A stretch of 64,000 bases of DNA from Alphaproteobacteria bacterium (lineage in GTDB: Bacteria; Pseudomonadota; Alphaproteobacteria; RF32; CAG-239): NCBI GenBank assembly GCA_017445475.1, contig JAFSUB010000013.1, positions 1-64,000 on the forward strand, read 5' to 3'. The position numbers and the translations under genes were made by a program. How positions within the stretch are numbered: position 1 is the stretch's first letter; every line of letters starts with the position of its first letter. This document shows, in pieces, positions 7,127 through 43,345 of the stretch. The notes below the pieces were generated by a model, which worked only from the letters and a program-made list of their open reading frames with translations, was not told the origin of the DNA and searched no databases.

Positions 7127-7202
7127 ATCCTATTCATATGATTTTATTTCTCCGCAAAATACGATAAATTAACATATTGATTTTTAAGGATAAAAATGGA
7201 CT

Positions 7203-7285
7203 GGTCTGTCCCGACCAAAAGTATCTATTTTGGTATCTTTTTTGGGAAATGGGTAAAAATAAAAAATAGATACTTTGGCCAGACC
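7203..7285. repeat. Long imperfect inverted repeat in a gene-free stretch
   Basis: Left arm GGTCTG (7203-7208) plus CCAAAAGTATCTATTTT (7215-7231); right arm AAAATAGATACTTTGG followed at once by CCAGACC (about 7263-7285). The arms pair almost fully with one bulge and a small internal loop. Bases 7127-7659 contain no credible gene; this repeat and the tRNA-derived pieces are what can be seen there. Confidence 0.6.
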
Positions 7286-7395
7286 ACCGCATAAATTCAC
7301 CTGTAAATGAGAATAACAAAAAATCGGAAAGTGCCGGAAAATAAGGGATATAGAGGCAATATTTTAAGCTGAAATCGCGCCGGCAAATTTAAAAC

Positions 7396-10625: not shown

Positions 10626-10626
10626 A
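10590..10626 (+). repeat. 37-bp direct repeat, left copy (3' end of uvrB)
   Basis: Covers the last codons and stop of uvrB. Matches 11546-11582 at 35 of 37 positions. The two copies bracket the Bro-N gene. Confidence 0.9.
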
Positions 10627-10702
10627 GTTATTTCATTTAGCAAAATTTTAAGTGTTTCAATTTTAAGATTATGCAGCATAAACCATATAAAAGGCATAAA
10701 AA

Positions 10703-11545: not shown

Positions 11546-11582
11546 AAAGAGCTTGAGGCAACGGCTTTGAGGAATTTATAAA
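11546..11582 (+). repeat. 37-bp direct repeat, right copy (uvrB 3'-end duplicate)
   Basis: Starts at the stop codon of the Bro-N gene and repeats the end of uvrB with two substitutions. Together with 10590-10626 it delimits a 956-bp unit. Confidence 0.9.
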
Positions 11583-11708
11583 ATCGGACGGCTTATAAAT
11601 CGGTATTTGCGGATTTTTTTGTATCAAAAAAGAAATTTAGTGCTTTTCAAATCTCATTTATTATATATAATAAGCGAAGTTTGAAAGATTTTTTTAAAGG
11701 AAAAACAG

Positions 11709-13238
11709 ATGAAAAAACCTGTTATGCTGCTTGTGCTGGACGGCTGGGGCTATCGCGAAAACAAAACACCGGATAATGCCATTGAAAACGGAAAAACGCC
11801 GAATTGGCACAAATTGCTTGAAACCTGCCCTCATGGCTTTATTGAAACATCGGGCCTCAATGTCGGTTTGCCCGAGGGGCAAATGGGCAATTCCGAAGTC
11901 GGTCATATGAATTTGGGCGCAGGACGCGTTGTGATGCAAGATTTGCCCAAAATAGATTTGGCCGTTAAAGACGGTTCCATCGCCAAAAATCCGGTTTTGC
12001 TCAAGCTTATCAACACCTTAAAGCAAACCGGCGGCACGTGTCATCTGATGGGGTTGATGTCTGACGGCGGCGTTCACTCGCACCAAAACCATATTTTGGC
12101 GCTTGCAACCGTTTTGTCGCAACAGGGCATTAAAGTTGCCGTTCATGCCTTTATGGACGGGCGCGACACGCCGCCGACGTCGGGCGCTGAATTTTTAAGA
12201 AAATTTGAGGCCGACATTGCCGGTTTGAAAAACGTTGGCATTGCCACAATTTCTGGTCGTTTTTATGCAATGGATCGCGACAAGCGCTGGGACAGGGTTG
12301 AAGCAGCATACAACAACATCGTTTCGGCGACAGGTGCGCGTTATCAAACCGTGCAAGAGGCTATGGCACACACTTATGCGCAAAATGTAACCGACGAATT
12401 TATTGTGCCTTGCGTCATCGGTTCTTATCAGGGCGCAAATGACGGCGACGCCGTTTTGATGGCCAATTTTAGGGCCGACCGCGCACGCGAAATTTTATAT
12501 GCTTTGTCTGACAAAGATTTTTCGGGCTTTAAGCGCCAAAAAACAGTTCGCTTTTGCGCATCTGTCGGCATGACCGAATATTCTGCCGACCACAGGCGCT
12601 TTATGCAAACCCTTTTTGCCCCTGAAGAGCTCAACGACATTTTCGGGCAAATTGTTGCCGAGCACGGGCTCACGCAGCTGCGTATTGCCGAAACGGAAAA
12701 ATATGCACACGTTACCTTCTTTTTTAATGGCGGCGAAGAACGCGAGTTTGAAGGCGAAAGCCGAATTTTGGTGCCGAGTCCGAAAGTTGCAACCTATGAC
12801 CTATTGCCCGAGATGAGCGTTTATGAAGTAACCGACAGGCTTGTTGACGCCATTGAAAACAAAAAATTTGATGTGATTATTTGCAACTTTGCAAACGGCG
12901 ATATGGTTGGTCATACGGGCATTATGGAAGCTGCGCTAAAGGCTGTTGCCGCCGTTGACGAAAACTTGGGGCGTGTGATGGAAGCCATCAAAAAAGCCGA
13001 TGGTGTGCTTTTTGTGACTGCCGATCACGGCAATGTTGAAAAAATGGTTGATGAAAAAACAGGCGCGCCATACACGGCCCATACTGTCGGCAAGGTTCAG
13101 GCGGCGTTGTTTAATGCACCGTCTGACGTGAAAGGCTTAAAAAACGGCAGGCTTGCCGATGTTTCGCCAACATTGCTTGATTTGCTGGGGCTTAAACAAC
13201 CTTCAACCATGACGGGGAAATCTTTGCTTGAGAAATAA
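11709..13238 (+). CDS. gpmI: 2,3-bisphosphoglycerate-independent phosphoglycerate mutase
   Basis: 509 aa, normal length. Interconverts 3- and 2-phosphoglycerate in glycolysis using two Mn ions. Asp11 in VLDGWGYR and the phosphoryl-carrier Ser62 in GNSEVGHMNLGAGR are present, as are FMDGRDTPP, FRADRAREI, ANGDMVGHTG and TADHGNVEKM, which supply the remaining metal and substrate ligands. ATG preceded by AAAGGA. First gene of the gpmI-envC-ctpA-rppH unit (gaps 6 and 21 bp, then a 4-bp overlap), an order known from alphaproteobacteria. Confidence 0.98.
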   Translation: MKKPVMLLVLDGWGYRENKTPDNAIENGKTPNWHKLLETCPHGFIETSGLNVGLPEGQMGNSEVGHMNLGAGRVVMQDLPKIDLAVKDGSIAKNPVLLKLINTLKQTGGTCHLMGLMSDGGVHSHQNHILALATVLSQQGIKVAVHAFMDGRDTPPTSGAEFLRKFEADIAGLKNVGIATISGRFYAMDRDKRWDRVEAAYNNIVSATGARYQTVQEAMAHTYAQNVTDEFIVPCVIGSYQGANDGDAVLMANFRADRAREILYALSDKDFSGFKRQKTVRFCASVGMTEYSADHRRFMQTLFAPEELNDIFGQIVAEHGLTQLRIAETEKYAHVTFFFNGGEEREFEGESRILVPSPKVATYDLLPEMSVYEVTDRLVDAIENKKFDVIICNFANGDMVGHTGIMEAALKAVAAVDENLGRVMEAIKKADGVLFVTADHGNVEKMVDEKTGAPYTAHTVGKVQAALFNAPSDVKGLKNGRLADVSPTLLDLLGLKQPSTMTGKSLLEK

Positions 13239-13244
13239 AAAACG

Positions 13245-14564
13245 ATGAAACAAGGCTTTTTTTATATCAACATCTTTTTTCTTGCACTCGCAATTTGTTT
13301 TGCAAGCCGGGCGCTTGAAGCCGCACCTGTTTCAAGCCAGCAGATTGAAACTTTAGAGCAAAAGTCCGACCAAAAAAAGATGGAATATAAGCGGCTTCAG
13401 GCCGAAGCCTTGGCCTTGAGTTTAGAGCTTGCAAAAATGAACAAAGAACTGGTTGAAGCTGCCAAACGCGTTCAAAAAGACGAAGATAAAATTATGCAAA
13501 CCGAAAAAGAGCTGGCTGTTCTTCAAAACAAACTCAAAATTGCCGAAGAAAACTTCAAAAAAGAACATCAAAATTTAGAGCTCATGCTTGTCAGTTTGCA
13601 AAATTTGGCGTTGCACCCGACAGACTCGCTTCTTTTTCAACCCCTAACACCTGTTGAAATTATTCAAAGCGCTATTTTGATGCGTTCAAGCGTGGGCTTT
13701 TTAAGCCAAAATTCCCAAAAACTTAAGGCCGATTTGGAAGATTTGAACGCGCAACATAAGGCTCTCAATCAAAAACTTTTAGAGCTTTCCACCCAAACCC
13801 AAAATTTGAAAAAAAAGCAAGAATCAATCAAACAAATGGCCTTAAAGAAAAACAAAATCCGCACCACGCTTGAGGGCGAAAGCTCAAAAGCCCGAAAAGA
13901 GGCGCTTGAGCTTGCCTCAAAAGCCTCTGATTTGCGCGACTTAATGGAAAAAGCCATTGAAGAAGCCGAGCTTAAACGCCGCAAACAGGAAGAACTCAAG
14001 CGTGCGGCACGCGAACGCGAAATAGCGGCGCAAGAAAAGCTTGAACAAGAACAGCAGCTTCGGCTTCAAAAACTGCGTGAGCAGGCACAAAGCCAAAGCG
14101 CGGATATGCTTTCAGATGATTCTCTTATTGAAGATGAAAAAGCTTATGACACCGTCAAAGCGCAAGATGTTTCGGAAAGCGCCCCGAAACCCTCTGCCGG
14201 ACAATTTCTGCGCCCTGCACGCGGCGAAATTGTAACTTTTTACGGACAAGAGCTTTCCAAGGGCGTCAATTCGAAAGGCATCATCATTCAAACACGTTCA
14301 AACGCGCAGGTTGTTGCACCTTATGACGGAACCGTCTTGTTTTCAGGGCCTTTTAAGGGATACGGACATCTAGTGATTATTTCGCATGGCGATGATCTTG
14401 TGTCGCTGATTGCCGGCATGCAAAACAACGACACCGAAAACGCTCAAATGGTTTTGGCAGGCGAACCCATCGGCTTAATGCCCGATACCGCACAGCCAAA
14501 ACTTTATATGGAAATTCGAAAAAACAAAAAACCGATCAACCCAATTGTTTGGCTTGGTCAATAA
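13245..14564 (+). CDS. EnvC-type murein hydrolase activator (degenerate M23 domain)
   Basis: 439 aa. A signal peptide (about residues 1-26), a long coiled coil (about 30-300, rich in Glu, Lys and Gln) and a C-terminal LytM/M23 fold (about 320-439). The zinc ligands of active M23 enzymes are absent: the usual HxGxD region reads SKGIIIQTR and the HxH site reads LYMEIRK. This is the EnvC/NlpD situation, where the protein activates amidases during septum splitting instead of cutting peptidoglycan itself. Partner amidase is not in the window. Six bp after gpmI and 21 bp before the protease gene. Confidence 0.88.
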   Translation: MKQGFFYINIFFLALAICFASRALEAAPVSSQQIETLEQKSDQKKMEYKRLQAEALALSLELAKMNKELVEAAKRVQKDEDKIMQTEKELAVLQNKLKIAEENFKKEHQNLELMLVSLQNLALHPTDSLLFQPLTPVEIIQSAILMRSSVGFLSQNSQKLKADLEDLNAQHKALNQKLLELSTQTQNLKKKQESIKQMALKKNKIRTTLEGESSKARKEALELASKASDLRDLMEKAIEEAELKRRKQEELKRAAREREIAAQEKLEQEQQLRLQKLREQAQSQSADMLSDDSLIEDEKAYDTVKAQDVSESAPKPSAGQFLRPARGEIVTFYGQELSKGVNSKGIIIQTRSNAQVVAPYDGTVLFSGPFKGYGHLVIISHGDDLVSLIAGMQNNDTENAQMVLAGEPIGLMPDTAQPKLYMEIRKNKKPINPIVWLGQ

Positions 14565-17251: not shown

Positions 17252-18223
17252 TTAAGTAACTTCGGTAATGGCGCGCAGATTCCCCTCGCGGTTAATTTGC
17301 ACAACTTTGAGTTTTTTGCGCATCTCATTCATTGTTTTAACTTGGTCGATATGCGGGTTTGTGGCCATAATTCTGTCGATAAAAGCCTTAAACGCGGCTT
17401 CGGAACTTTCCGCGTGAATTGTTGCAAAAAAGTTGTCATGGCCTGTGCCCATCAGCTGCCAGATAGCGTCCGCATTTTTTGTTGAAAGCTCACCGCCGAT
17501 AATGGCGTCCGGCGTAAAGCGCACAACAAGATCGATAATGTCGGAATAGTTCATCTCGTTTGTCTGTCCCGTTCGCGACATCACAAGGTGAACACGGTTT
17601 TTATGCGGCACAATCAGCTCACGCGTATCTTCAATGGTAATCACGCGTTTATGGGGGTCCAAAATTTTAAGCAAATTGTTCAAAAAAGTCGTTTTACCGG
17701 TTGCCGTCGCACCGCTGATTAAAACGTGGTCGCCACGTTTGATGTATAAGAGTAGCCTTTCATAAGGATCATCTGGGTCTTTAAGGTCTTTTAACGGGTT
17801 AATTTTCAAAAGCGACTTTCCTTGCTCCAAACCATAATCTGCCAAACCGAAAGCAACTTCTTCACTGTGCACGCGGATTGTGAGAGCCACGCCGCCGGTT
17901 AAGTCATTTTCATCATACATCACATTTTGCCCCGCAATCGCCGAAAAACGATGTCCGCCCGGCAAATCCGTAAACACCAAAGGCGTTCCCTGCATCGGAT
18001 CAAACGGTTTTTCATAGGTGTTGGCAATAATATAAAGCAAGTCGGTCAAATATTCTTTTGAAAGTTTTTCATCTTCATACATAACCCACGGATAAGCTCT
18101 TTTGCCGCGAAGACGAAGCCAAACTTGCTTTTCACGGTCAATGGCAACTTCTTCGATATTGTCCTGATTATACCAATATGAGAGCGGCCTTAAAACAGAT
18201 TCCAAAACACGAAAAGAGCTCAT
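17252..18223 (-). CDS. virB11: VirB11-family secretion ATPase
   Basis: 323 aa from the ATG at 18223 (MSSFRVLESVLRPLSYW), preceded by AGGGGA; a longer frame upstream lies inside the virB10 gene and is not used. Cytoplasmic hexameric ATPase that drives substrate passage and pilus assembly. N-terminal domain about 1-140; Walker A GATATGKTT near residue 170; Asp box TIEDTRELI; Walker B region RFTPDAIIGGELS; His box ATIHAES. The GHDNFFATIHAES form resembles VirB11 of type IVA systems more than DotB. Starts 10 bp after the preceding virB10 stop. Confidence 0.93.
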   Translation of the reverse strand: MSSFRVLESVLRPLSYWYNQDNIEEVAIDREKQVWLRLRGKRAYPWVMYEDEKLSKEYLTDLLYIIANTYEKPFDPMQGTPLVFTDLPGGHRFSAIAGQNVMYDENDLTGGVALTIRVHSEEVAFGLADYGLEQGKSLLKINPLKDLKDPDDPYERLLLYIKRGDHVLISGATATGKTTFLNNLLKILDPHKRVITIEDTRELIVPHKNRVHLVMSRTGQTNEMNYSDIIDLVVRFTPDAIIGGELSTKNADAIWQLMGTGHDNFFATIHAESSEAAFKAFIDRIMATNPHIDQVKTMNEMRKKLKVVQINREGNLRAITEVT

Positions 18224-18233
18224 TTCATATCCC

Positions 18234-21200
18234 CTAAAAAAGTTGCCCCGTTGACGGATCAGGCGAAGAAGATGTTGAAGAAGATGAAGAAGACGCACCC
18301 GAACTTGTTGATGAAGGCGGCGGCGGAACAGCCCCCGGCGCTTTTGCCCGTCTTTGTCTTGCATAAGCACTATCATCAATTAAAGGACTCGAAGGCTCAA
18401 TTTTGTCATCTTTGCCGCTGTAAACAACCTGCGAGCCGCCGCCGGCCGCATCTGAAGCATTAGTCGTTCTACCGCGTTGGAGACTGCCAATCGGATCGCT
18501 ATCATCAATGAGCACTTCCGGCTTTTTGAGGCTCTCTTTAAGATGTGCTTTTTCTCTTTGAGCCGTGCGCAGCCACAAATCCACCTTCGGAAAGATAATC
18601 AATCGCGTTCCGGCCGGCACGTATGTAACCGAGTTAATCGCCATCTTGCGTTGAATCAAATCATTAAAGATATAATCCATCTGGTCTAAAAAGTTTTGCC
18701 GCGCCTGATTTGAAGCTGCTGCTTTTGAATCTTGAACCGTATTGCCATCCGAGCTGGTTGTTGTCTGGCCGCTTGCGGTCATATAAACCAAAGCGCTTGA
18801 CATCAAAGATGTTGCAATCGGCGCCGTATAGCGTTGTAGCAATTGCTCGTCCAAATAACCCAAAGCACCGCCGCGGCCCTGTGCGTCGCCCGTTTGTGCC
18901 GATGCAAATTCAAACGCCACACCATCAGGTCTGATAAGCCTTGTCCACGTAATGTCAACTCGAACCGCACTTCCCGACGAACTCGCGCCACCACCCGAAG
19001 AATATCCCATCACGCGACTTCCTGCCGGAATAACCACATTGCGTCCGTCTTCAGCATAAACATTTCTTTCCACAATTGCGGTTACCGGCACATTTGATGC
19101 GCCGCCGCTGTCCATAATCGTTCTGGCCAAAACCGCCGGAATCGGCTTGTCCGCCAAAATCATTTCGCTCATATCAACCCGCCACGACGACAATTTATAA
19201 TCCGCATTGTCCCAATTGTCCTGCCAGCCCGTAATGCTTGAAGGATTCACGCCGGAACTAATTCTTCCGACTTTAACCTCTTGCTGGCGCACATTTTGCG
19301 CTTCCGAAAGCAATCTTGCCCTCACGGGGTCATACCGCTCACCCGGACCAAAACCGCCTCCGGGGCCCAAATTTGACGGAACTTTCGATGTACCGTATGC
19401 ATCGGGCGGTAAAAAGATGGGCGAAGTTGCTCCGGCCGATTTTCTGCGCCCCTCAATAATGCCAACTCTTGTTCCGTCTTGTTCATCAATCGGTTCAATC
19501 GTGCCCAAAACATCACCGTTTTCATCTATGGCCAAACCATCTTCGCTGCGACCGATAATGCGGCCCGTTTTCGGATCAATCACATCTCCCGTTTCGAGCA
19601 AATCAGCCAAATAATCGCCGTTCGGAGAAACAACAACACCAATCACTTTTTCGGAATATGAAGGCAGTTTTTCTTTTGCCTCCGGAACAACGACAGGTTC
19701 AACCTGAATGCCCGTTCTTTCATCTTCCGGAATACCGGCCCAACCGGCTGATTTTTTGGCTGAGCGAACATAATATTGCAACGGTTTTGCTTGTCCCAAA
19801 AGTTTTCCGCTTTCATCTCGAAGCTCACCGCTGTTTGAAATTGTCCCCAAAACCTCACCGCTATTTCCGACAACCTCGCCCGAAAGCATCAGCTCACCGA
19901 CAGCGTTGTTTTGTTTGTCGCGCACAAAATAGTCGCGGGAGCCTCTGCCGATAAGCTGCCCGTCTTTTGAAACCAAGAAACCTCTGTCAGCTTTTCCAAG
20001 CCTTGAGCCCGAAAAACTCATCACTGTGCCGTTTTTCGTTAAATAACCGATAGCCTTTCCGTTTTCATCATAAACATACAAATCATAAAGCGCATAGCCG
20101 ATGATCTTGTTTTTGAAAAACAGCGCACCGTCGTTTGAAACGTTGCCGACCACCGCGCTTTTGTCGTCCAAAACCTCACCGCTTGCCATCACATAACCCA
20201 AGAAATTGTTATCTCTGTCAAAAGCAAATTTATATTTGAAAACCAAACCGAGGACTTTTTCATCATCACTCATCACGCCTCCGTCGGGCAAGGCATATCC
20301 CGCATCTTCGTTTTTGGGGGAAATGAGCCTATTTTTCAAATTAACACGCCCTAAAATTTTGTTTTCAAAGCTCATCACAGGATAAAGCTGAACCAAACCC
20401 GCTTTCAAAGCACCGTTTTCATCATAAACCCTTCCGTTTTGATTTAAGCACCCCTCAATGCCTTTTTGCGCGTTCAAAACCTGCCCGATTTCATTGGCCG
20501 TGCCCACAAAACGCCCGTTTGTGTCATAAACCGGCCCAAGCCACGCAATGTGGCCGACATTCTGCCCAACCTCGGATATTGCCTGCCTGTTTAGCAAAAC
20601 TTTGCCCAAAACGTTGTCGCGCCCGTTTCGAACTTCGCCCTTTAAGCCCACCACACCGAGCGGTTCGCAGTTTGCATTCACAACAGCCCCGAAACCGATG
20701 TTTTGGCCCAAAAATGCTCGGTTTGCGTTCAAAATAAGCTGACCTTCGCCCATTTTTCCAACATTTGCACCAACACTCAAAACATCGCCCGAAAAACTGA
20801 CATATCCCAACATTTCGCCCTTAACATTTAAGGCCACGCCACGCTCGTTTGAGGCTGTTCCGATAACATCATCTTTTTTGCCTTCAAGGGCAACAACATC
20901 ATATTCCGGAACAATTTTCGCAATCGGATTTTCTTTTTCGTCATAAAAAATGTTGGTTTGAGACAACACATCACTTTCACTGCCATCAAACAAAAAAGCA
21001 AATGCCGGATTAATCTGACGCGCCTTAATTTCGTTTTGCTCATCAATCACCAATCCGCTGTTTTCAATTTTCAGTGTCCGGCCGGTTTGCATATCAAGCT
21101 CTATATAGGCAAACAATTCGCCATTTTCATCGTATGACGGTGCCAAAGAAATGGTCTGTCCCGAAACCACGCCGTCAACATTATAAACATATCCCATCGG

Positions 21201-22445
21201 TGAAACTTTATATGTTTGAGCACCATGCACAAAATCCGAGCTGATTCCGGTCAGGCCTAAATTTTCCTGCTTTGTGTTCAACACAAATGCCGGTTTTAAA
21301 ACGCCACCCATCATCACGCCGGCCTCATTAAAGGCCACATCATTTTTCATAAAACCGAGCCTCGAACCTTCAAACGAAACAACATATCCGCTCGTTACGG
21401 CCTCGGCTTTGAGCCTTCCCAAATGGTCAAAAACAGGCCCTGTCGCCGCAATAAAGCCGATTGTTTTGCCCTTTTTATCAACCACAATGCCTCTCGGTCC
21501 GACAACGCCAACCTCACTTGTGCCCCTGACAATTTTGCCTTCAGGAACCAAATAACCGAGATACTGCCCTTTGTCATCAAGCGCAACACTCGAAAGCGGC
21601 AACGAAAAACCGATAACTTCCCCTTTTAAGGTTGAAACAAGACCGTCAGCTCTTAATTTTCCCACAATTTTTGACTTGCTGACAATTTCTCCGTTATAGC
21701 TCACAAGTCCCAAATAAGCACCCTGATTGTCAAACGCATATCCGCCTTTCAGCGCGCGGCCGATAATTTTTGAGCCGTTGTCATAAACATATCCGTTTGC
21801 ATGAACTTTGCCGATTGGCGCACCTTCAAAATTCGAAACCTGTCCGCCCGGGGCAACACTGCCGATAAACTGACCGGCAAGATCCACAACCATTTTTGCG
21901 GCAAGCAACCTGCCCTCAAGAACAACAGAGCCCTCTGCGCGCCGATAAGCATAACCCGACGGCGAAACAAACCCGATGTTGTTTCCGGCCAAATCAACAT
22001 ACGAACCGTTGCCCGCAACGCGACCAACTGCTTTGCCCGAATCATTATACACAATGCCCGAAGACAAAACGCTTCCGATAACTTCAAACGTGTCGTCAAC
22101 CACCAAACCGCTGGGCAAAATCTTTCCCGCAATGTTTCCCGAAGGCAACCGAACCGTGCCGTCGCCCAAAACCTTTCCCAAATATTTATAATCGTTTCCG
22201 AGGGCAAAACCCTGTGCAACAACGCCGCCGATAATGTCGCCTTTTGAATTTAAAACAAAACTGTCTGCCGTGAGTTGCCCGATAATCTCGTTTTTGAAAT
22301 TGATAACCGTTCCATCCGGAATCACTTTTCCGATGGGTTCACCGTTAAAATTTATCGCCGTAATATCTTGTGCGACGGCCATGCCGACATTGAAAACAAC
22401 AAGTCCCAAACATATTGCGATATATTTCATCATTTTTTGACACAT
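18234..22445 (-). CDS. VirB10-like protein, downstream part: giant periplasmic repeat protein with VirB10/TrbI domain
   Basis: 1403 aa from the ATG at 22445, set by AGGAGG ten bases upstream. It has its own cleavable signal peptide (about 1-26, ends GMAVAQ). Residues about 38-985 hold about 45 copies of a 17-residue repeat (consensus IGxVxxDGxVxDxxGxx). Residues about 1095-1295 are a clear VirB10/TrbI C-terminal domain: LADKPIPAVLARTIMDSG, VIPAGSRVMGY, WTRLIRPDG, and an antenna-like hydrophobic stretch around TSLMSSALVYMT. The tail is Ser/Pro-rich. Expected role: outer-membrane part of the secretion core channel. Lacks the inner-membrane anchor of normal VirB10 (about 380-480 aa), which the adjacent gene supplies. 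Confidence 0.88.
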   Translation of the reverse strand: MCQKMMKYIAICLGLVVFNVGMAVAQDITAINFNGEPIGKVIPDGTVINFKNEIIGQLTADSFVLNSKGDIIGGVVAQGFALGNDYKYLGKVLGDGTVRLPSGNIAGKILPSGLVVDDTFEVIGSVLSSGIVYNDSGKAVGRVAGNGSYVDLAGNNIGFVSPSGYAYRRAEGSVVLEGRLLAAKMVVDLAGQFIGSVAPGGQVSNFEGAPIGKVHANGYVYDNGSKIIGRALKGGYAFDNQGAYLGLVSYNGEIVSKSKIVGKLRADGLVSTLKGEVIGFSLPLSSVALDDKGQYLGYLVPEGKIVRGTSEVGVVGPRGIVVDKKGKTIGFIAATGPVFDHLGRLKAEAVTSGYVVSFEGSRLGFMKNDVAFNEAGVMMGGVLKPAFVLNTKQENLGLTGISSDFVHGAQTYKVSPMGYVYNVDGVVSGQTISLAPSYDENGELFAYIELDMQTGRTLKIENSGLVIDEQNEIKARQINPAFAFLFDGSESDVLSQTNIFYDEKENPIAKIVPEYDVVALEGKKDDVIGTASNERGVALNVKGEMLGYVSFSGDVLSVGANVGKMGEGQLILNANRAFLGQNIGFGAVVNANCEPLGVVGLKGEVRNGRDNVLGKVLLNRQAISEVGQNVGHIAWLGPVYDTNGRFVGTANEIGQVLNAQKGIEGCLNQNGRVYDENGALKAGLVQLYPVMSFENKILGRVNLKNRLISPKNEDAGYALPDGGVMSDDEKVLGLVFKYKFAFDRDNNFLGYVMASGEVLDDKSAVVGNVSNDGALFFKNKIIGYALYDLYVYDENGKAIGYLTKNGTVMSFSGSRLGKADRGFLVSKDGQLIGRGSRDYFVRDKQNNAVGELMLSGEVVGNSGEVLGTISNSGELRDESGKLLGQAKPLQYYVRSAKKSAGWAGIPEDERTGIQVEPVVVPEAKEKLPSYSEKVIGVVVSPNGDYLADLLETGDVIDPKTGRIIGRSEDGLAIDENGDVLGTIEPIDEQDGTRVGIIEGRRKSAGATSPIFLPPDAYGTSKVPSNLGPGGGFGPGERYDPVRARLLSEAQNVRQQEVKVGRISSGVNPSSITGWQDNWDNADYKLSSWRVDMSEMILADKPIPAVLARTIMDSGGASNVPVTAIVERNVYAEDGRNVVIPAGSRVMGYSSGGGASSSGSAVRVDITWTRLIRPDGVAFEFASAQTGDAQGRGGALGYLDEQLLQRYTAPIATSLMSSALVYMTASGQTTTSSDGNTVQDSKAAASNQARQNFLDQMDYIFNDLIQRKMAINSVTYVPAGTRLIIFPKVDLWLRTAQREKAHLKESLKKPEVLIDDSDPIGSLQRGRTTNASDAAGGGSQVVYSGKDDKIEPSSPLIDDSAYARQRRAKAPGAVPPPPSSTSSGASSSSSSTSSSPDPSTGQLF
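19490..22335 (-). repeat. 51-bp periodic coding repeat array in the downstream VirB10 part
   Basis: About 45 diverged copies of a 17-codon unit, read on the minus strand, most starting IG, VG or LG and carrying a central xxGxVxD. DNA identity between copies is low, so the array is old and selected at protein level. Some units carry insertions of 10-50 residues. Confidence 0.85.
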
Positions 22446-22449
22446 CGTT

Positions 22450-25400
22450 TTAGTTCCTCCGATTCTGCGCGACTTCTTGCAGAGCGTAACCCGCAACATT
22501 TTTATCATTATCTACAAACGAGCCGTTGCTTTTCAAATGGCCGATATAGTCCCCTTTGGCATTTTTCACGCGGCCGTCATAGGTTAAATAGCCCAGATAT
22601 TTTCCTTCAACGGACAGAACGGCCGTTCCGAGCTTAAATGTTTTGCCCAAAACATCGTTTTGGTTGTCAATCGCCAAACCGCCCGAAAGCACCCGACCGA
22701 TTTTTTTGTTGTCGCTTGAACGCAATGTGCCGTCAAACGCCACAAAACCGACAACCTGATCATCTGCGCCAATCACAATGTCGCCGCTGACAACCTCACC
22801 GACCAAACGCCCCTGATTGCTTAAAACTTTACCGTCCTGATAAACACGCCCGATAAGTGCGTTTTTCTTGCCCATAACCGTGCCGTCAGGCAAAACAAAA
22901 CCGATGGGTTCGCCGTTAAAATTCACCACAACGCCTTTTTTCAGAAGGCCTAAATTCCGGTCTGTCATACCCCCCGGCAAAACGGCCGAAACAATTTTGC
23001 CCGAAACGTCCGAAACTTCGCCTTTTGCATTCACAAAACCGCTGTATGCCCCAAACAAATCAATCATAACCTCTTCCGGCACAACTTCGCCTTTGACAAC
23101 ACCGTTAAGGTCTTTAATCAGCCCTTCGCCCGTTTCATAACCGACAACGTTGCCCCTTACATCTAAAACCCGACCTTCGGCATTAACATATCCCAAATAC
23201 GACCCGTCATATCCGATGGCCGGTCCCTGTTTCACAACACCGCCGGCATAGTTGTTGTCCAAATCAAACCATCGTCCTGCGCTGTCCGTTTTGCCCAAAA
23301 TTTCGCCGAACTTATTCACGATGCGGCCGTCAAAATTTACAAAACCTTTTGCTTCGCCCTGTTCATCAACAACCACAGCCAAAGGCAAAAAGCGCCCGAG
23401 CGTTTCATTATAAAAACTCAAACCCTCACCGTGTATTTTATCAACGGCCACCCCGTTGTCGCTATAAATATAACCGTCGGCAAACAGATGTCCCAAAACA
23501 TTTCCTTCCGATGTCATCACAACATTTCTTTGCGGCAACACAACGCCGATAATTTTGTTTTGCCTGTCCGCCAAATAGTGATGAAGCAAAATTTTCGCAC
23601 CTGTATATTTTTCCAAGCTCAATGTGCCGTCATTTGAAACATTGCCAAGCAGATTTCCATTCAAATCGAAAGCATAATAAAGCTCGTTGATTCTGCCGAT
23701 GTAATTTCCTCTCAAAGAGTAAACATCACCGTAAAAATCGGTGCAGCCCACTTTTGAAAGCGCATTTGAAGCAACATCACCGCTCTCGACAAGCATACCG
23801 ATTGTCTGGCCCGAAGCATCTATTGCAACTCTATAGCGCGCAACGCGGCCGACAACATTCCCGCTGTCGTTTAACACACGTCCGTCCGGATTAACGCAGC
23901 CCACATATTTTTGCCGTTCATTATACACAAGCCCCGCGTCATCAACAAAACCGATTTCCTGACACGCATCATTAAGCACCTTGCCTTTTTGCACAACCGC
24001 ACCCAAAAACAAACCTTTGTCGTCATATATGCTGCCATCGGGATAAATGCGATATTTTCTGTCTTGATGAAGGCTTGAAACAATACCTTTTTTATCTAAA
24101 ATTCCGACATTTGCACATCCCCAACCGACAACCGTTCCGCCTTCAATGCCCTGACCGATGATTTTTGAACCACCGGCCTGCTTGATTAACCGGTTTGGCA
24201 AAATACGCCCCAAAACCTTTCCCTTGTCGTCAACAACATCACCTGTCGGCGCAATTTCACCCAAAATCACACCGGTCGGCGAAACGGCAATCAAATCCGT
24301 ATCCACAACCGAGCCGAGCTTAACCCACGCCTCAACCAAGAGTTGGCCGTCTTCGCTTAAATGTCCGACAATTTTACCGTTTGCATCAACAATTTCATTT
24401 TTATCATTCAAATAACCGATAACACGCCCATCATCGCCGAAAATCACGTTTGTTTCATCGCCGGCACGACCGATAACGTTTCCATTGGCATCAACAAGCG
24501 TTCCATCTTCAAGCATTTTACCAATTTGATTGCCGTCAAAATCCATCACATTGCCGTTTTCATCGACATATCCCAAAAGATGCCCGCTTTCGTCATAGGC
24601 CATTTTCAACTTTTTAACATTAGAACTCGTTGCTCTGCCAATAACCTTTCCTTTGCTGTCAACAACCGTTCCGTCAGCAAGAACTCTGCCGATAACCTTA
24701 CCGTTTGCATCAATCACGTTACCGTTTGCGTCAACCATGCCGATGATGTTGCCGTCTTTGTCATAAGCAATCCCCTGCTCGCCGACAAGTGCGCCGACAA
24801 CTTTTTGCTTTAGAGCAAACAAATCGCCGTTTGCATCAAGCTTTCCGATGATGTTGCCGTTTTCATCAATCACCGAGCTGTCCGGCAAAACAACACCAAG
24901 CGCTCGTCCGTTTTCATCAATCACCGTCTTGCCCGTTTGGCTCACGTGCCCGATAACTTTTCCTTCCAAATCGACAACCTCGCCGTTTTGATTGAGCCGC
25001 CCGATAACATTTCCGTCATCATCAACCACCGTTCCATCATCCAAAACCCTGCCGATAATCTCGCCCTCATCATTAAAAACATAGCCCGCTTGAACCGCTC
25101 TGCCGACAATTTCGCCGCGTTCGTTAATTATCGTGCCGTCGGCAAGTTGCCTGCCGATAACGTTTCCGTCCAAATCAAACGCCACCCCGTTTGCCGCAAC
25201 ATAGCCCACAACCTTGCCGTTTTCATCAAACACAAGCTTTTTGTTGCCTGCCACACCGATGATGTTGCCGTCATTGTCAATCACCAAACCATCGCCGTTG
25301 ATACGGCCGATCACGCGGCCGGCCTCATTATAAACCAACCCGTCTTCGCCCACATAGCCAATCGGACTGCCTGTCGGTCCGTATGCAATTTGGCGCTTTG

Positions 25401-26052
25401 CGGCATCTTGCTCGTCAAAATCAAGCGCGCCCGCACTCAAACCCGCTTCGCAAAAATTACATTCTTCTTTTGTAATGGCATTACCGTCAACCGGAACTTT
25501 TTCCGCTTTGGCGTTCTGCGCGCTCAAATTTGTTTCGTGCCATGAAACAATAAAGTTATTTTGCACATTTCCGGCAACAACGGGCGCCCAACTAATCACA
25601 ACATTACACGTCTGGTTACCGCGCAGTTCGGCACTTGTGCAATTGTCCTGATACACAAACCCGTCAAACGGCGGTTCCGCAAGCTTAACCGAAACAACCC
25701 GAATAGCCGATTTTCCGTTTGTGCCGATGGTCAAAACATTTTTGGCCTCCGTGCCCAAAACAACTTGGCCCATATTCACCGGATTGGGCGTTGTCGTAAT
25801 CGGCTTTTCTTGGGGTTCAATTTCATCAAACTCAATATCACTCATTAGCGGATTTGTGTTGCCTTGCGCCCCTAAAACATCATCATCTGCCGTAAACACG
25901 GGTTCTTGATATTCATCATTAGGCACTTTGCTTGAAAACAAAAGCAAAAGCCCAAACAAAAAGGCAACAAAGGAAACCAAACCGATTACCAAAATAATGC
26001 GGTTTGTTTTTCGAACATATCGTTCCGAGTGTGTTAACTGTTGTTTTGCCAT
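22450..26052 (-). CDS. VirB10-like protein, upstream part: membrane-anchored Ig-like and repeat protein
   Basis: 1200 aa from the ATG at 26052 (AAGGA just upstream). Residues 1-19 are cytoplasmic and basic, about 20-42 a single transmembrane helix, the topology of the VirB10 N-terminus. About 85-195 is an Ig-like domain of the DUF1573/ASPM-Hydin kind (TIGTNGKSAIRVVSVKL, two cysteines, VISWAPVVAGNVQNNF). About 230-1190 contains about 50 copies of the 17-residue repeat shared with the next gene. There is no VirB10/TrbI C-terminal domain. The stop is 4 bp before the next start, so both parts are made together. Likely spans the periplasm and works with the downstream half. Confidence 0.8.
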   Translation of the reverse strand: MAKQQLTHSERYVRKTNRIILVIGLVSFVAFLFGLLLLFSSKVPNDEYQEPVFTADDDVLGAQGNTNPLMSDIEFDEIEPQEKPITTTPNPVNMGQVVLGTEAKNVLTIGTNGKSAIRVVSVKLAEPPFDGFVYQDNCTSAELRGNQTCNVVISWAPVVAGNVQNNFIVSWHETNLSAQNAKAEKVPVDGNAITKEECNFCEAGLSAGALDFDEQDAAKRQIAYGPTGSPIGYVGEDGLVYNEAGRVIGRINGDGLVIDNDGNIIGVAGNKKLVFDENGKVVGYVAANGVAFDLDGNVIGRQLADGTIINERGEIVGRAVQAGYVFNDEGEIIGRVLDDGTVVDDDGNVIGRLNQNGEVVDLEGKVIGHVSQTGKTVIDENGRALGVVLPDSSVIDENGNIIGKLDANGDLFALKQKVVGALVGEQGIAYDKDGNIIGMVDANGNVIDANGKVIGRVLADGTVVDSKGKVIGRATSSNVKKLKMAYDESGHLLGYVDENGNVMDFDGNQIGKMLEDGTLVDANGNVIGRAGDETNVIFGDDGRVIGYLNDKNEIVDANGKIVGHLSEDGQLLVEAWVKLGSVVDTDLIAVSPTGVILGEIAPTGDVVDDKGKVLGRILPNRLIKQAGGSKIIGQGIEGGTVVGWGCANVGILDKKGIVSSLHQDRKYRIYPDGSIYDDKGLFLGAVVQKGKVLNDACQEIGFVDDAGLVYNERQKYVGCVNPDGRVLNDSGNVVGRVARYRVAIDASGQTIGMLVESGDVASNALSKVGCTDFYGDVYSLRGNYIGRINELYYAFDLNGNLLGNVSNDGTLSLEKYTGAKILLHHYLADRQNKIIGVVLPQRNVVMTSEGNVLGHLFADGYIYSDNGVAVDKIHGEGLSFYNETLGRFLPLAVVVDEQGEAKGFVNFDGRIVNKFGEILGKTDSAGRWFDLDNNYAGGVVKQGPAIGYDGSYLGYVNAEGRVLDVRGNVVGYETGEGLIKDLNGVVKGEVVPEEVMIDLFGAYSGFVNAKGEVSDVSGKIVSAVLPGGMTDRNLGLLKKGVVVNFNGEPIGFVLPDGTVMGKKNALIGRVYQDGKVLSNQGRLVGEVVSGDIVIGADDQVVGFVAFDGTLRSSDNKKIGRVLSGGLAIDNQNDVLGKTFKLGTAVLSVEGKYLGYLTYDGRVKNAKGDYIGHLKSNGSFVDNDKNVAGYALQEVAQNRRN
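22480..25362 (-). repeat. 51-bp periodic coding repeat array in the upstream VirB10 part
   Basis: About 50 units of 17 residues; typical copies are IGRVLADGTVVDSKGKV and IGRLNQNGEVVDLEGKV. Units near the N-terminal end of the array are closest to consensus; later ones diverge and some carry insertions. Confidence 0.87.
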
Positions 26053-26063
26053 CAATATCCTTC

Positions 26064-27692
26064 TTATTGTATTCTAATCACACTGCAAAATACACCGTTT
26101 CTGCCGAGCGCGCCGCAAATTTCATCACCGACATCAATCGAATCAACCGGACCTATTCTCAAATGAAACAGCTCTTTGCCTTGCCCGTCTGCCGGCGCAT
26201 CGACAGAATAAAACGGCTGGTAGCCCTTAAGTATCGAACCGTAATTTCTTGCCAAATCACTCCACAAAGTTTCAAGGTTCGCCACATTCGAATCTGTCCC
26301 GAGCTCAACGGAAATGCTGGCTGCATCATCGCTTTCAAAGCCGACACCATAACGATAGCCTTCAAGCGAATTTGCAAACGTCATTTTGTTTTCACCCGGT
26401 TGAAGCTTATACATTTTGCGATACCCCGAATTTTGCGCGCCTGCCTGTCGGCCGTTTTGGAAAGCATATTCCGGAACCAAAAGCTCGCCCGAGGGGCCCA
26501 TGTTGATTTCATATTCGCCCGTAAGCTTTGCCTGTCCGTCGGGGGTTTGCCACATTGATTTGGTGTTGCTGTCAACCGTGCCGCCCGTCAATTCAAATCC
26601 CTGAACCTCAGAATTTTTGGTTTGCCCGTTTTTGCCCGAAGGAAGCGGCGGCGGAACGTCCCAATCATTTGTTTTGGCTCTGATATCATACATACCCGCA
26701 TCGTCCGAGCGTCTTAATTTTAAACAAACGATACGCTTGCCGTTTCGAAGCACCATATCACCCACACCTTCAACAACAATCAGCCTGTTGTTCGGCCCTT
26801 TTGCACGAAAGCCGACCGGCGTTTCCACACGTTCGACAATCAGCGTTACAATCGGGCGCTGTGTCATATTCAAAGCCTTTTCACCCAAATCGATATATGT
26901 GAAAATATCATCGCGCCAAACGCGTTCAGGCGCAATCACCACATCATCAGGGTTCGGAACATAAACTTCAATATCAAACTTAAATTGCGAAGGATCAAGC
27001 GGAATGCTCTGAATCCAATCTTCTTTTTGATAGCGACGCGTAAACGTTGCATCAACCGATTTATTGTCGCCCGCACCGTATGCGTTTGCGTTTAGCCGTC
27101 CGCCAAAAGAACCGCCCGAGCCGCTACCTCCCGCGCTTTTTTTTTGCCCGCCGACAACCTCAATATCAATCACCGAGTTTGTCAAACGCTCCGTGTTTAC
27201 GTCTTCGCTTCGAACATAAAACACATATTTATTGCCCGAACGCCCAAACACCATCACATTTGTGTCAACGCCAACGGTTGATGTGCCCTGCGCCGGATAA
27301 AGCAAAAGCGTGTTCGGTCCCGTAATTTCACCGTTAAACGTGCTTTCATCGCCGATATAAACGTTTTCCAAAAGTTCCCATTCAGGAAAGTTGATTAAAG
27401 TGAGCATACCCGTTCTTACTCTGACGGGCAAAACCAAATCGGGCGACCAATAATATTTTGAATAAGCCGGTTTTGTTTGCCCCTCACCCAAATTTTGAAG
27501 CGGATCAAGCCACGCGCTTTGCATCATTCCGAGCGAACCCATACCGGCATAATCCAAATTCATCACCGGATAACTTCCCTGCGACTGGTCGGCGTTTTGG
27601 TTCAAACTGTCTATTGTTGCTTGCGACAAAGCGTTGCCCGAAAAAAACACAACGCTCAAAAACACCGCTATTTTCTTGAATTCAACTTTCAT
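26064..27692 (-). CDS. VirB9/TrbG-like core protein with C-terminal SPOR domain
   Basis: 542 aa. Signal peptide (1-24, ends NALSQ). About 95-190 is a VirB9 N-terminal beta domain: RTGMLTLINFPEWELLENVYIGD and TNVMVFGRSGNKYVFYVRS. About 240-345 is the VirB9 C-terminal domain: VWRDDIFTYIDLG, RPIVTLIVER, VEGVGDMVLRNGKRIVCLKL. About 470-542 fits a SPOR domain (ELFHLRIGPVDSIDVGDEIC, then LGRNGVFCSVIRIQ), a peptidoglycan-binding fold not part of usual VirB9 (about 260-300 aa). The domain would tether the outer-membrane core complex to the wall. ATG preceded by AAAGGA; 11 bp before the virB10 genes. Confidence 0.87.
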   Translation of the reverse strand: MKVEFKKIAVFLSVVFFSGNALSQATIDSLNQNADQSQGSYPVMNLDYAGMGSLGMMQSAWLDPLQNLGEGQTKPAYSKYYWSPDLVLPVRVRTGMLTLINFPEWELLENVYIGDESTFNGEITGPNTLLLYPAQGTSTVGVDTNVMVFGRSGNKYVFYVRSEDVNTERLTNSVIDIEVVGGQKKSAGGSGSGGSFGGRLNANAYGAGDNKSVDATFTRRYQKEDWIQSIPLDPSQFKFDIEVYVPNPDDVVIAPERVWRDDIFTYIDLGEKALNMTQRPIVTLIVERVETPVGFRAKGPNNRLIVVEGVGDMVLRNGKRIVCLKLRRSDDAGMYDIRAKTNDWDVPPPLPSGKNGQTKNSEVQGFELTGGTVDSNTKSMWQTPDGQAKLTGEYEINMGPSGELLVPEYAFQNGRQAGAQNSGYRKMYKLQPGENKMTFANSLEGYRYGVGFESDDAASISVELGTDSNVANLETLWSDLARNYGSILKGYQPFYSVDAPADGQGKELFHLRIGPVDSIDVGDEICGALGRNGVFCSVIRIQ

Positions 27693-27706: not shown

Positions 27707-28447
27707 TTATTCGACTTTATTGTGCGAAAGCGAATATCCCGTAACCGTAAAGCCAATCGGATTATTCAACCTTTCGCCGTATTTAACCGTTTTTTTGCGA
27801 TACACAATCCTTAAAGACGCCGTCCAATAATCAACCTGCGGCGCGCTTGAATCGGGATACATATCCCGCGTTTCATATTCAACCTGCCACAAACCGCGGC
27901 TAAGCTCATTAACCGTCATAATGCGCACAACCCTGATGAGCCCTTTGTTTTTAATAATGTCAAGTGCTCTTTTGGCCGTCTTATCAATAAATGCCTGATA
28001 AACCGCCGATGACGACATTTCCTGCAATTGGCTGCCGGGCATCCAGCGTGATTCCATTTCCTGCACATCGCCGACAAAAGCACTTCGAAGCAAAACATAT
28101 TCGCGCACAAAAACTTCGGTGATGGCCTTCTGATTTTCCATATTGCTCAAAGGCACAATGTCATAAACCTGTTCCTGCTTGTTTTCAAAAGTCAGCAAAA
28201 AGGGCTCCACACGGTATAGCGGAATAAGTTGAGCAATAGTCAAAATCAAAACCAAATTGCAACAAAGGCTGATGGCAACAATAACAGCAAACGCGCGCGC
28301 CGTCCACAAATACCTTTTTTCGGATGCATTCACAACCACATCGCTGCTTTGCCCGCGCGCGGGCGCAGGCCCGCTTGGCCTTTTCGGATTTGTCCTTGAG
28401 CCAATCAGTTTTTGCTCAACGTTATCAACGCCTAATTTTTCCGCCAT
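27707..28447 (-). CDS. VirB8-like inner-membrane protein (copy 2)
   Basis: 246 aa from the ATG at 28447 (AAGGA seven bases upstream; a TTG three bases earlier is less likely). A cytoplasmic tail of about 45 residues rich in Pro, Arg and Ser, one transmembrane helix (about 48-75), then the VirB8/TrbF periplasmic NTF2-like domain beginning LYRVEPFLLTF and ending LNNPIGFTVTGYSLS, the family's NPxGF-V-Y signature. Bridges the inner-membrane complex to the core channel. Paralogue of the gene at 28789-29541, from which it is separated by a VirB7-like lipoprotein gene. Confidence 0.88.
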   Translation of the reverse strand: MAEKLGVDNVEQKLIGSRTNPKRPSGPAPARGQSSDVVVNASEKRYLWTARAFAVIVAISLCCNLVLILTIAQLIPLYRVEPFLLTFENKQEQVYDIVPLSNMENQKAITEVFVREYVLLRSAFVGDVQEMESRWMPGSQLQEMSSSAVYQAFIDKTAKRALDIIKNKGLIRVVRIMTVNELSRGLWQVEYETRDMYPDSSAPQVDYWTASLRIVYRKKTVKYGERLNNPIGFTVTGYSLSHNKVE

Positions 28448-28457
28448 CAAATTTTCC

Positions 28458-28788: not shown

Positions 28789-29541
28789 TTAAAGAATTTC
28801 AACTTGTGTTTGAGAATATCTTGTAACGGTAAAACCAAGCGGATTCATCAGGCGTTTTGCCATAAAAAGACGTTCCTTAATGAAAAATGCCGTAACCGAT
28901 GCCGTCCAATAATTTGTTTTCAAAACGAGTCTGTTTCCACCTGTGCCCAAAGCGGAAGGCGATAAATCGTATGTTCTGAAATCAACTTTCCAAACGGGGC
29001 TTTTTTCACCGCCGACCTTACCGATTGAAATAATCTCCACGTCGCGCACAACCCCTTTTTGCAGCAAATTTGAAAGCTCTGAAACCTGCGTGCGCTTAAA
29101 ATCGATATAAACGGAAGGCGACGACAGATAATTGACCACCCCGCCGGCAAACCATCTTGATTGCATTTCTCTTTCGTCATTTAAAACCGTATTACGCATA
29201 ATCACATATTGCCGAATAAAATTTTCCATCATCTGCCTTGACGAAGCCATGTCCGGCGCAATCGCCTCATAGCGAACCATCGAATCCGAATTATCTTGGC
29301 TGATAATCAAAAAAGGCTCAACACGCACGAGTGGCGCCATCTTAAACAAAACAAGCGACGCAGAAGTAAAAAACGCAAGCGACAAAACGCAAAAAAGCAT
29401 CACAAGCCTTGAAACCCACTGATAATATGTTTCCTTAAAGGTTTTGAGCCTGCTTTCTTCGTCGGTGATATAATTTTGAGCCATTTGGCGCGTGCCCTCA
29501 AGCGCCAAAACATCATCTTTTGCTGTCAAACGCTTTGCCAT
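28789..29541 (-). CDS. VirB8-like inner-membrane protein (copy 1)
   Basis: 250 aa; ATG at 29541 after AAGGAG. A cytoplasmic tail of about 45 residues, one transmembrane helix (about 47-70: LVMLFCVLSLAFFTSASLVL) and a VirB8 periplasmic domain starting MAPLVRVEPFLII and ending LMNPLGFTVTRYSQT. Parallels the second copy along its whole length, but most positions differ, so the duplication is old. A 151-bp AT-rich gap separates it from the VirB7-like gene and could hold an internal promoter; I see no convincing one. Confidence 0.88.
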   Translation of the reverse strand: MAKRLTAKDDVLALEGTRQMAQNYITDEESRLKTFKETYYQWVSRLVMLFCVLSLAFFTSASLVLFKMAPLVRVEPFLIISQDNSDSMVRYEAIAPDMASSRQMMENFIRQYVIMRNTVLNDEREMQSRWFAGGVVNYLSSPSVYIDFKRTQVSELSNLLQKGVVRDVEIISIGKVGGEKSPVWKVDFRTYDLSPSALGTGGNRLVLKTNYWTASVTAFFIKERLFMAKRLMNPLGFTVTRYSQTQVEIL

Positions 29542-29550
29542 TTCAACTCC

Positions 29551-32500
29551 TTAAAAATATTTCGCGCGATACGGTGTTTCAAACCGCTCCATATTCTTTT
29601 CAAATTCTTCTTCCGCTTCCTTGTCGTATTTTTCCAAAACGACTGCGTCTGTTTTCTTTTGCTTAATGTTTTCTTCAAGCGTTGCGTCCGGTTCTGTTAA
29701 ATCCGAAAGCGACACAAGCTCTTCTTTGTCCATCTGCATTGACTTAAGCATCTTGTCAAGTTTTGTTTTTCTTTCAAGCAAATAGTCGTTCATCTCGGGC
29801 AGCGTATTCATCATCTCAAGCGCCTCGCTTAAAAACATATTTTTGCCCTCGTCCAAACATTTCAAAACACTTTGATAAGTTTCTTCGTCTGCAATAAACT
29901 CCGATGAAATCACCGTCTTTGTTTTTTGCGTTTTCAAATATTCGCCCGACACTTTTTGGGTAAATGTGCAGCTTGCCTTTGACAGCGCTTCGTCTATTGT
30001 CGCACGCGCGTCGTCAACCTTCACGCGAAGTTTTGCAAGCGCTTTTTGATATTCCCGTTCTTGGTCAACAAACTGCAGATAATCGGCAATTTGATTGCGT
30101 GAGAGCATTCTGTTGCTTTTTTCTCTGATTTCGTCCTCATCGCCGTCGTCGTCTCTTGAAGCCGTATCATCAAAAAACTTGCCCAAGTCATACATCGGCG
30201 TCGTCAATGTCAACCCTTTTTCATATTTCACGAAAACGGAAAGCTCGCTTTCCGGTCCGGCCGGTTTTTCACCCTTTACCTTCAAGAAGTTGTCGCTTTT
30301 TGAGTCACTTCCGACTTTTAAGATGTCCTCAATGTCCACATCTCTTTCGCCCAGCCCGTTTTTAAGCAAAATTCTTGTCCAAACCGACGGAACTTCCTGT
30401 TTCATCTTCCAAAACTCATAACGCGTCGTTTTCGGATTTATATTTCTTGGGGTTTTTGTTTTCACAACTTCGTCATAATCCACCGAATCAAAATGGATAG
30501 ATTCTCTTAAAGGCGGCCAATACGAAACCGTAATTCTTTTCGGCGTCCACAAATCTCTTTTTCCGGCGTCAATACAAACAAAATATTGGCTGTCTTCCTG
30601 CCGATAGTTACCCGAGTTTCCTGCCGAGCACTCCTCTTTTCCATTGTCAAACACCGCTTTTCGAACATAATTTGCCGAAGATGCCGCAAAATTTGCCGTG
30701 CTCATGATAAAGTCCGGATACCCTGCGCTTCTAACCACTCTTGATGCAAAAGCATGATTTTCGATATAATCCAATATTTGCTGATGAAGTTTGTTGACGG
30801 TGCCGTAATTTCTCGGATCATAGAGCTTATCTCCCAAAGCAAACATTTGTTTCACGCGGCTTTGAATAAAGCTGATAACATTATTATGCCAAGCATTAAA
30901 TGTTGCCTCTGCCAAACTTAAAACCGTCATACCTCCTGCCCCGAAATAACCGGCACTAAAACCAATAACCGACGTGCGCGCCTCAAGCTCCTTAATTTTT
31001 TCGGCCATCTGAGCAATAAACGCTGCCTCCATCGCAACGGCCTGTGCAATATAAGTTTCATTTTCGCTTTCAATCTGCGCGTCAATTTGTTCAATCTGCT
31101 CTTTCAAAACATCGATTTGTGTTTCGTAAATTCCAACCTGCCGCAAAGCCTCGTCTGCTTTCGGGCTCACTTCTTCAGATTTTTTCTGTTGCTGTGTCTT
31201 GCGCTCATCGGCATCGACATTCAACGCGCTTGTATAGGTGGAATCCTGCTGCCTTTTTTGCTCTTCAAGCTTGATGAGCTCTTCTTGGGCCAAAACATTT
31301 TCATCGGCCTCGTTTCTTTGCTGCGCATTATCGGCATGAACCATCTTTTGCGCATTCATTTTCGGCGCAATCTCATCCATTCTTTCATAAATAGCCTCTT
31401 TCCGCGCAATAAGCGAAGCAATTTTCTGTTCGTGTGCTTTCACAAACGCGTCCATTTTCGCATCGCCTTGCTTTTTAAATTCGACAACAGGCTTTCCTCT
31501 CAACTGCTTAGCAAACGCAGATTCGAAATTTGCCCTATCTGCTGCCAAAAGCGCCGCATTTGACGCCTTCATTTCAGCCACTTCTTCTTCAAGCTCATGC
31601 TGTCTTTTGTCGCAGGCTTCTAAACGCTCTTCATAAGCCTTTTGAGCCGCATCTTCACAATATACGAGCGAACCACGACACGCCTTACCGCACTCTGATT
31701 TGCGCGCAGAAGCCTCTGCGGCCGTTTCTCCCTCCGGTCCGGTTGCCCCTGCGCAATTTGATGAGCAAGTGTCATAGTTTTTATTGCAGGTTTTAACGTC
31801 TTTTTGTCTTGCCTCTTCGGCATCACTTGTGCACCTAACCATAAACATCGGATCAACATCAAAACTCTCGTTAACGGAGGCCACCAAATCATAGATAATT
31901 TGCTTAACATAATCCGAGTTCAAATAAAGCAAAATATTGCCATATTTCAAATTAAGATATTGATCGTAAAAACGCTTTTCATCGCCCCAAACAGGATATC
32001 TTTTCGCACTCGGTCCGAAAACACCGCCCCCTTGACTCATATCCAAACCCACTTTTTTTGAAAGTGCCGAACCAATCTGAAAACGATTTAACTTCCCTTC
32101 GCGAACGGCATCTTCGGCATACGCCTCATTTGAAGGCAAACTCAACTCATCGGCATCTTTCATCACACTCTTTACTTTTGTTTTTTTATTATATTTTTTA
32201 AGCTCTCTGGGCGTTTTTTCATCAATTGTTGCCGTGCCGACTTCCACATCTTCATTATTCATCAACACATCTGTCCTTGAACGCACATAAGCCGAAATCG
32301 CGGCACCGGAAAGCCCGCGCCTTTGAGCATATTGGTTGACGGCAAAATTGATACGCTCATCAAAAGTCCGTCCGTCAACCGGCTCATCTTCCGTGCCAGA
32401 AACGCCGCCTCTGACATCATATGTCGTCATTTCAAAAACTTTGTTCGGACAAACAACATCGGCAAAGCTCACATAATCATATTCGTTTTCGCTTTTACAG

Positions 32501-42376: not shown

Positions 42377-42414
42377 AGTCCTTTCTCCTTTAATGAATGA
42401 AAATTCTTTATACA

Positions 42415-42420
42415 ATTATA
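42415..42420 (-). promoter_or_regulatory. Candidate -10 element for pilin copy A
   Basis: TATAAT on the minus strand, 39 bases upstream of the start codon and conserved in copy B (43340-43345). No good -35 hexamer is visible at the normal distance, so the call is weak. Confidence 0.35.
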
Positions 42421-43298: not shown

Positions 43299-43339
43299 GG
43301 CTTCCTCCTTTTTAGTTAAAAACAAAACTTCTTTATACA

Positions 43340-43345
43340 ATTATA
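43340..43345 (-). promoter_or_regulatory. Candidate -10 element for pilin copy B
   Basis: TATAAT on the minus strand, 42 bases upstream of the start codon, in the duplicated upstream block. The -35 is not clear. Confidence 0.35.

Follow-up and report, generated by a model that had tools for sequence, protein, structure and literature searches.

Our data indicate that, in a family of Alphaproteobacteria, a chromosomal type IV secretion system (T4SS) has its VirB10 subunit divided between two adjacent genes, one encoding the inner-membrane half (part 1) and the other encoding the outer-membrane half (part 2). VirB10 is the sole T4SS subunit known to link the inner-membrane complex with the outer-membrane core (review, PMC12857230). 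In place of a single bridging polypeptide, two genes were found in the window (the whole stretch of 64,000 nucleotides analyzed here) and at 69 readable loci of relatives. We consider it probable that this is a VirB10 split by fission whose halves rebuild a strut spanning the envelope.

Two adjacent genes encode the halves of VirB10

The two genes contain the following features.

22450-26052, minus strand: part 1, VirB10 inner-membrane half, 1200 aa from ATG
25933-25995, minus strand: part 1 single transmembrane (TM) helix, after a cytoplasmic tail of ~19 residues; hydropathy (KD) 3.03
25474-25803, minus strand: part 1 Ig-type ASH/PapD-like domain, residues about 84-193; weak Pfam ASH match, E=0.0076
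22483-25392, minus strand: part 1 beta-hairpin repeat array, residues 221-1190; Pfam Bflower_2 1.9e-72, DUF3659 1.2e-39
22453-22482, minus strand: part 1 near-invariant C-terminus LQEVAQNRRN; short helix in the model
22456-22460, minus strand: part 2 Shine-Dalgarno GGAGG, within the RR codons of part 1
18234-22445, minus strand: part 2, VirB10 outer-membrane half, 1403 aa
22371-22445, minus strand: part 2 Sec signal peptide, AVA before QD, from sequence features
19509-22367, minus strand: part 2 array of the 17-residue repeat unit shared with part 1; Bflower_2 4.6e-41
18570-19160, minus strand: TrbI/VirB10 C-terminal outer-membrane domain, residues 1096-1292 of part 2; PF03743 E=6e-30

The tail, TM helix, Ig-type domain, and repeats that the initial annotation had assigned to the upstream gene were all confirmed on the minus strand between the ATG at 26052 and the stop codon at 22452-22450. 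In an AlphaFold model of the whole of part 1 (pLDDT 82.8, pTM 0.67), a helix spans residues 8-40, and hairpins with continuous strands run near-unbroken from residue 221 to residue 1190. A disordered stretch lies between the TM helix and the Ig-type domain, which Foldseek matched to the ASH domains of HYDIN and CEP192 (prob 1.00, TM-score 0.64-0.74 over the target). The tail and TM helix are kept in relatives, including the single-chain outgroups. The N-terminal tail and single TM helix of a VirB10 protein are present here, yet on part 1 and not on the chain that contains the TrbI domain.

Part 2 begins, as had been noted, four bases past the part 1 stop, with an ATG at 22445, and the combined length of both parts (2603 aa) agrees with the ~2600 residues first estimated. 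Its leader, MCQKMMKYIAICLGLVVFNVGMAVA followed by Q, bears out the claim of a separate signal peptide. Leaders were scored by rules (n-region charge, core, and -3/-1 residues), and by these rules every one of the 70 distinct leaders combines a positive n-region and a hydrophobic core with small residues at -3/-1. A signal anchor was rejected since the small -3/-1 residues of all 70 leaders favor cleavage. The mature N-terminus is (Q)EITAIDFNG-like across relatives. The TrbI domain, also recognized from the outset, scored 104.9 bits against PF03743 (cut-off 35), and its profile matches solved structures of ComB10 (2bhv, 2.9e-35), CagY, TrwE, and TraF.

We found that the ribosome site of part 2, annotated as AGGAGG, is GGAGG (context CGGAGGAAC) and is embedded in the last codons of part 1 instead of being free-standing. 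Of the 31 junctions listed, 28 have GGAGG and three (L044, L045, and L047) have variants; in 62 of 70 loci, part 2 starts 1-4 nt past the stop codon of part 1. The codons at the junction vary: part 1 ends in TAA (29), TAG (26), or TGA (15), while part 2 starts with TTG (26), ATG (23), or GTG (21). The relative frame of the halves varies as well (20/31/19 over 70 loci), and the halves are in phase at 20 of these loci. Since the layout is conserved while the frame is not, this arrangement argues for coupled translation of part 1 and part 2, as opposed to frameshifting or read-through.

The split is conserved and the two halves co-occur

The named relatives of the family are MAGs, mostly from animal gut, including Azospirillum sp. 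CAG:239. Among 80 named gut-MAG records, VirB10 is split at all 69 loci that are readable on both sides; the remaining 11 comprise contig ends, stretches of N, and variants of the motif, and one of them (L122) proved to be split on inspection. Genomes representing 14 genus-level groups within the family are split as well, as are those of another family of the order (f2) and of a family farther away (f51), in which a leader occupies the matching position. Part 1 almost always ends in NRRN followed by the stop codon, with a single NRRD within the family. No fused frame was found within the family (69 readable named loci), the fused relatives outside it being outgroups, and a leader accompanies the second gene in every relative. 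The survey of relatives proposed with the initial annotation thus upholds its view that the split is conserved and that an assembly error is unlikely, the same junction recurring at 69 loci.

Four near-complete genomes of the family lack TrbI, the repeats, and VirB4 altogether, and both halves are gained or lost together. Two apparent cases of VirB10 loss with VirB4 kept (G041 and G001) were set aside as contig ends. We found no report of a naturally split VirB10 in the open-access literature searched.

The split is a derived fission

Unbroken chains occur outside the split families: about 1280 residues in f4 (L051), about 2000-2500 in f74 (L074-L077), about 2200 in f91 (L079 and L080), and 2838 in f23 (L041). 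These chains share the tail-TM-Ig domain, repeats, and TrbI domain of the split pair. The best-domain E-value of the tail-TM-Ig domain is 1e-31 to 1e-59 in six single-chain forms and 5e-17 in one f91 genome; in two further forms the domain is off the contig or broken. In one f91 genome, the gene immediately upstream of the single-chain VirB10 encodes a VirB9 with a SPOR domain, as in the window. The idea that part 1 is some unrelated repeat protein was ruled out, its N-terminal domain being present in the single-chain orthologs. We sought a position equivalent to the junction in the single-chain relatives; repeats match everywhere and no position was singled out.

In a TrbI tree of 67 rows, the split forms of the window's family (f1) and f2 constitute one clade (97/96), nested with single-chain forms in a group separate from ordinary VirB10 (98/93). 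The single-chain f4 and the split f51 adjoin this clade with ambiguous exact placement. The split label takes two changes on this tree, so one origin of the split is likely, not proven. Because the distant Alphaproteobacteria f23, f74, and f91 keep one chain, the split reads as derived, and its origin by fission of a giant single-chain VirB10 is well supported. Of the forms available, those of f23, f74, and f91 give the closest picture of the ancestor.

The split VirB10 lies in a type IV secretion gene cluster

Both genes follow the VirB9-VirB10-VirB11 order within a T4SS cluster that contains VirB4, VirB8, VirB2 in the form of several VirB2-like pilins, and three secreted proteins besides the 1385-aa one described below.

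17252-18379, minus strand: VirB11 ATPase, directly downstream; TIGR02788 6e-43
26064-27692, minus strand: VirB9 (CagX domain), immediately upstream; SPOR-like domain at the C-terminus
27707-28450, minus strand: VirB8 copy A; PF04335 1.3e-21
28789-29541, minus strand: VirB8 copy B; PF04335 4.5e-16
37140-39572, minus strand: VirB4 ATPase; TIGR00929 6.7e-107

VirB9 is about 520-610 aa with a SPOR-like end in the window, L088, L079, and 16 listed relatives. This domain, of a peptidoglycan-binding type, is conserved in sequence throughout the family; it scores above the Pfam cut-off in L079 and just below it in the window and L088. The two VirB8 genes are adjacent and diverged. Also within the cluster is a 1385-aa protein (29551-33708, minus strand) that matches no Pfam family and whose N-terminus resembles a signal peptide. 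A tandem pair of near-identical genes for VirB2-like pilins occupies 41984-42415 and 42903-43340 (minus strand), and further VirB2-like genes lie at 41275-41637 and, with a long extension, at 39913-41256.

Other T4SS genes lie elsewhere in the genome. VirB6/TrbL-like matches were found away from the main cluster (G000 C26 47566-47913 and 51926-52327; C25 47767-48105) in frames of 1250, 439, and 713 aa, the first alone exceeding the Pfam cut-off. A VirD4 coupling protein is on a separate contig, L172 (PF02534 4.4e-56). It is flanked there by proteins of 178-740 aa without a Pfam family (6622-7383, 9614-11640, and 11603-13825, minus strand), which are candidate effectors or parts of the system. 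VirD4 does not decide the substrate, as conjugation systems carry it too. A search of the genome for the PF03432 relaxase, the one class covered, found none. A scattered, chromosomal T4SS that lacks this relaxase suggests the transport of effectors rather than conjugation.

Both halves contain a beta-hairpin repeat array

Common to both parts is a 17-residue beta-hairpin unit with the consensus IGRVLPDGLVVDLDGNV, known to Pfam as beta-flower/DUF3659. We counted 44 units above threshold in part 1 and 36 in part 2, compared to 6 or fewer in shuffled sequences; one of the 44, at residue 50, falls outside the array. The earlier counts of ~50 and ~45 are higher than these, and with diverged units included there is room for about 55 units per array, or ~110 slots altogether. 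Across the genome, PF21785 repeats are confined to the part 1 and part 2 genes. Tandem Repeats Finder detected no tandem DNA repeats in either gene. A sequence search gave no solved homologue of the array, and Foldseek gave no solved fold like it (TM-score at most 0.17), with nothing useful from a viral library. AlphaFold predicts the repeats to be all-beta without an alpha-helical module. The repeats take the position of the linker, while short proline-bearing stretches lie near the TM helix and before the TrbI domain.

The length of part 1 ranges widely across relatives, from about 1040 to 2520 aa. In one genus-level group, g4 (L071, L046, L047, and L038), part 1 is 2094-2518 aa while part 2 is about 1380-1470 (stop to stop), so that length varies in the inner half.

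The halves are predicted to dock end to end

Majority identity, calculated in 50-residue blocks, is 0.42-0.47 in mid-array but reaches 0.72 where part 1 ends and 0.76 where part 2 begins. The ends at the junction are therefore conserved to the level of the TrbI domain (0.75). This rise extends over at least about 200 residues to either side of the break; conservation of NRRN itself is due in part to the embedded Shine-Dalgarno sequence. We folded the in-frame junction of L099 as one chain with 17 relatives, reading its TAG as Q and including the last ~330 residues of part 1, the leader, and the first ~330 residues of part 2. AlphaFold returned a pLDDT of 83.9 and a pTM of 0.83, although it might stack the open ends of any pair of beta arrays. 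By arithmetic from the pTM formula, a pTM of 0.83 corresponds to a mean error between the halves of roughly 5-6 angstroms, and two equal domains placed freely would be expected to give a pTM of about 0.5. Disorder in the model is limited to residues 327-358, the signal-peptide stretch.

The model thus predicts end-to-end docking of the halves through their repeats, restoring a continuous beta array. The joint presence or absence of the halves in family genomes is a further line in favor of joining. The initial annotation had proposed that the repeats join the halves by side-to-side packing; joining agrees with the rise in conservation and the predicted docking, but end-to-end stacking fits better than side-to-side contact. 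Of the mechanisms considered, a non-covalent strut is the likeliest, and we judge it to be likely in its own right. We propose that an ancestral fission cut a giant, repeat-bearing, single-chain VirB10 of a chromosomal T4SS. Part 1 would keep its inner-membrane anchor, its tail facing the ATPases, and would extend a rod of beta-hairpin repeats, tethered by the Ig-type domain, into the periplasm. Part 2 would be exported on its own by Sec and shed its signal peptide, its TrbI domain making the outer-membrane ring and its repeat array facing inward. The new ends, where the part 1 array stops and the part 2 array begins, would dock to produce one envelope-spanning strut, and translational coupling between the two genes would hold the halves near 1:1. 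The rings would assemble, keep their stoichiometry, and pass signals over a non-covalent joint. More tentatively, and with less than even confidence, VirB10 here might bridge and sense energy without a covalent chain through a joint that makes and breaks or holds unequal copies, acting as a clutch between the inner-membrane motors and the outer-membrane channel.

Alternative readings of the split

It is also conceivable, if unlikely, that the halves are not bound one to one and that the inner and outer rings are uncoupled, each with its own copy number. Known T4SSs have symmetry mismatches, and VirB10 counts differ by layer (14/16/12/2x6; PMC12624023). Bridging would then fall to other proteins such as VirB9 with its SPOR-like domain, the VirB8 pair, and the 1385-aa secreted protein, and the SPOR-like domain and the second VirB8 copy are indeed present here. 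However, conservation climbs toward both junction ends, AlphaFold docks these ends, and the tight gene coupling suggests near-equal synthesis.

We give a low probability to the arrays being mainly surface-exposed and host-facing like the middle repeat region of CagY, with the split allowing the outer half to vary or be presented while the inner half is undisturbed. The CagY repeat region is variable and surface-expressed (PMC5954226), the named family records are gut-type MAGs, and array length differs widely among relatives. Yet it is mainly part 1, on the inner-membrane side, that varies in length, the genes lack DNA-level tandem repeats for rapid recombination, and CagY repeats are alpha-helical (PMC2581425) while those of the window are beta.

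That programmed frameshifting or stop read-through additionally yields a fused chain is very improbable: read-through at the in-phase loci would result in fusion, but the frame relation and the stop codon vary among loci, and the signal peptide would end up mid-chain. A sequencing or assembly frameshift in one gene, as in the genuine mid-repeat frame break without leader or start site in one f91 genome (G272, L078), is refuted for the family by the recurrence of one junction, with a signal peptide, a start site, and three relative frames, at 69 named loci across many independent assemblies, and has a negligible probability.

Comparison with known secretion systems

Our data place the pair alongside VirB10/TrbI/TrwE (PF03743; TrwE of R388, VirB10 of A. 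tumefaciens, and ComB10 of H. pylori) by the TrbI outer-membrane domain, the tail and one TM helix, and the VirB9-VirB10-VirB11 gene order. These proteins are one chain of ~400 aa with a short proline-rich linker, whereas here there are two polypeptides, the second with its own signal peptide, and about 110 beta-repeat slots in place of the linker. CagY of H. pylori is likewise a giant, repeat-bearing VirB10 of an expanded T4SS. However, CagY is one chain (1927 residues in solved entries) with alpha-helical repeats that stem from direct DNA repeats (PMC5954226), unlike the beta array described here. DotG of Legionella is a single chain and is by description set apart from the pair. The single-chain giant VirB10 proteins of other Alphaproteobacteria share the tail-TM-Ig domain, the repeats, and the TrbI domain with the pair and differ in being unsplit.

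Models of gating and ATP sensing by VirB10 rest on one chain. Counting against the proposed strut, an engineered split of the neighboring subunit CagX in H. pylori abolished activity (PMC13417560), so that tolerance of splitting is not general among OMCC subunits. 'Split CagX' resembles the pair in presenting an OMCC subunit as two chains, the second with a foreign signal sequence, but it is an inactive laboratory construct of VirB9, whereas the window contains a natural and conserved split of VirB10. A whole bacterial family works with the VirB10 chain cut and its outer half separately exported. This is a natural experiment on whether VirB10 needs continuity, with the unsplit relatives as controls, and the split defines a conserved joint that is open to direct testing.
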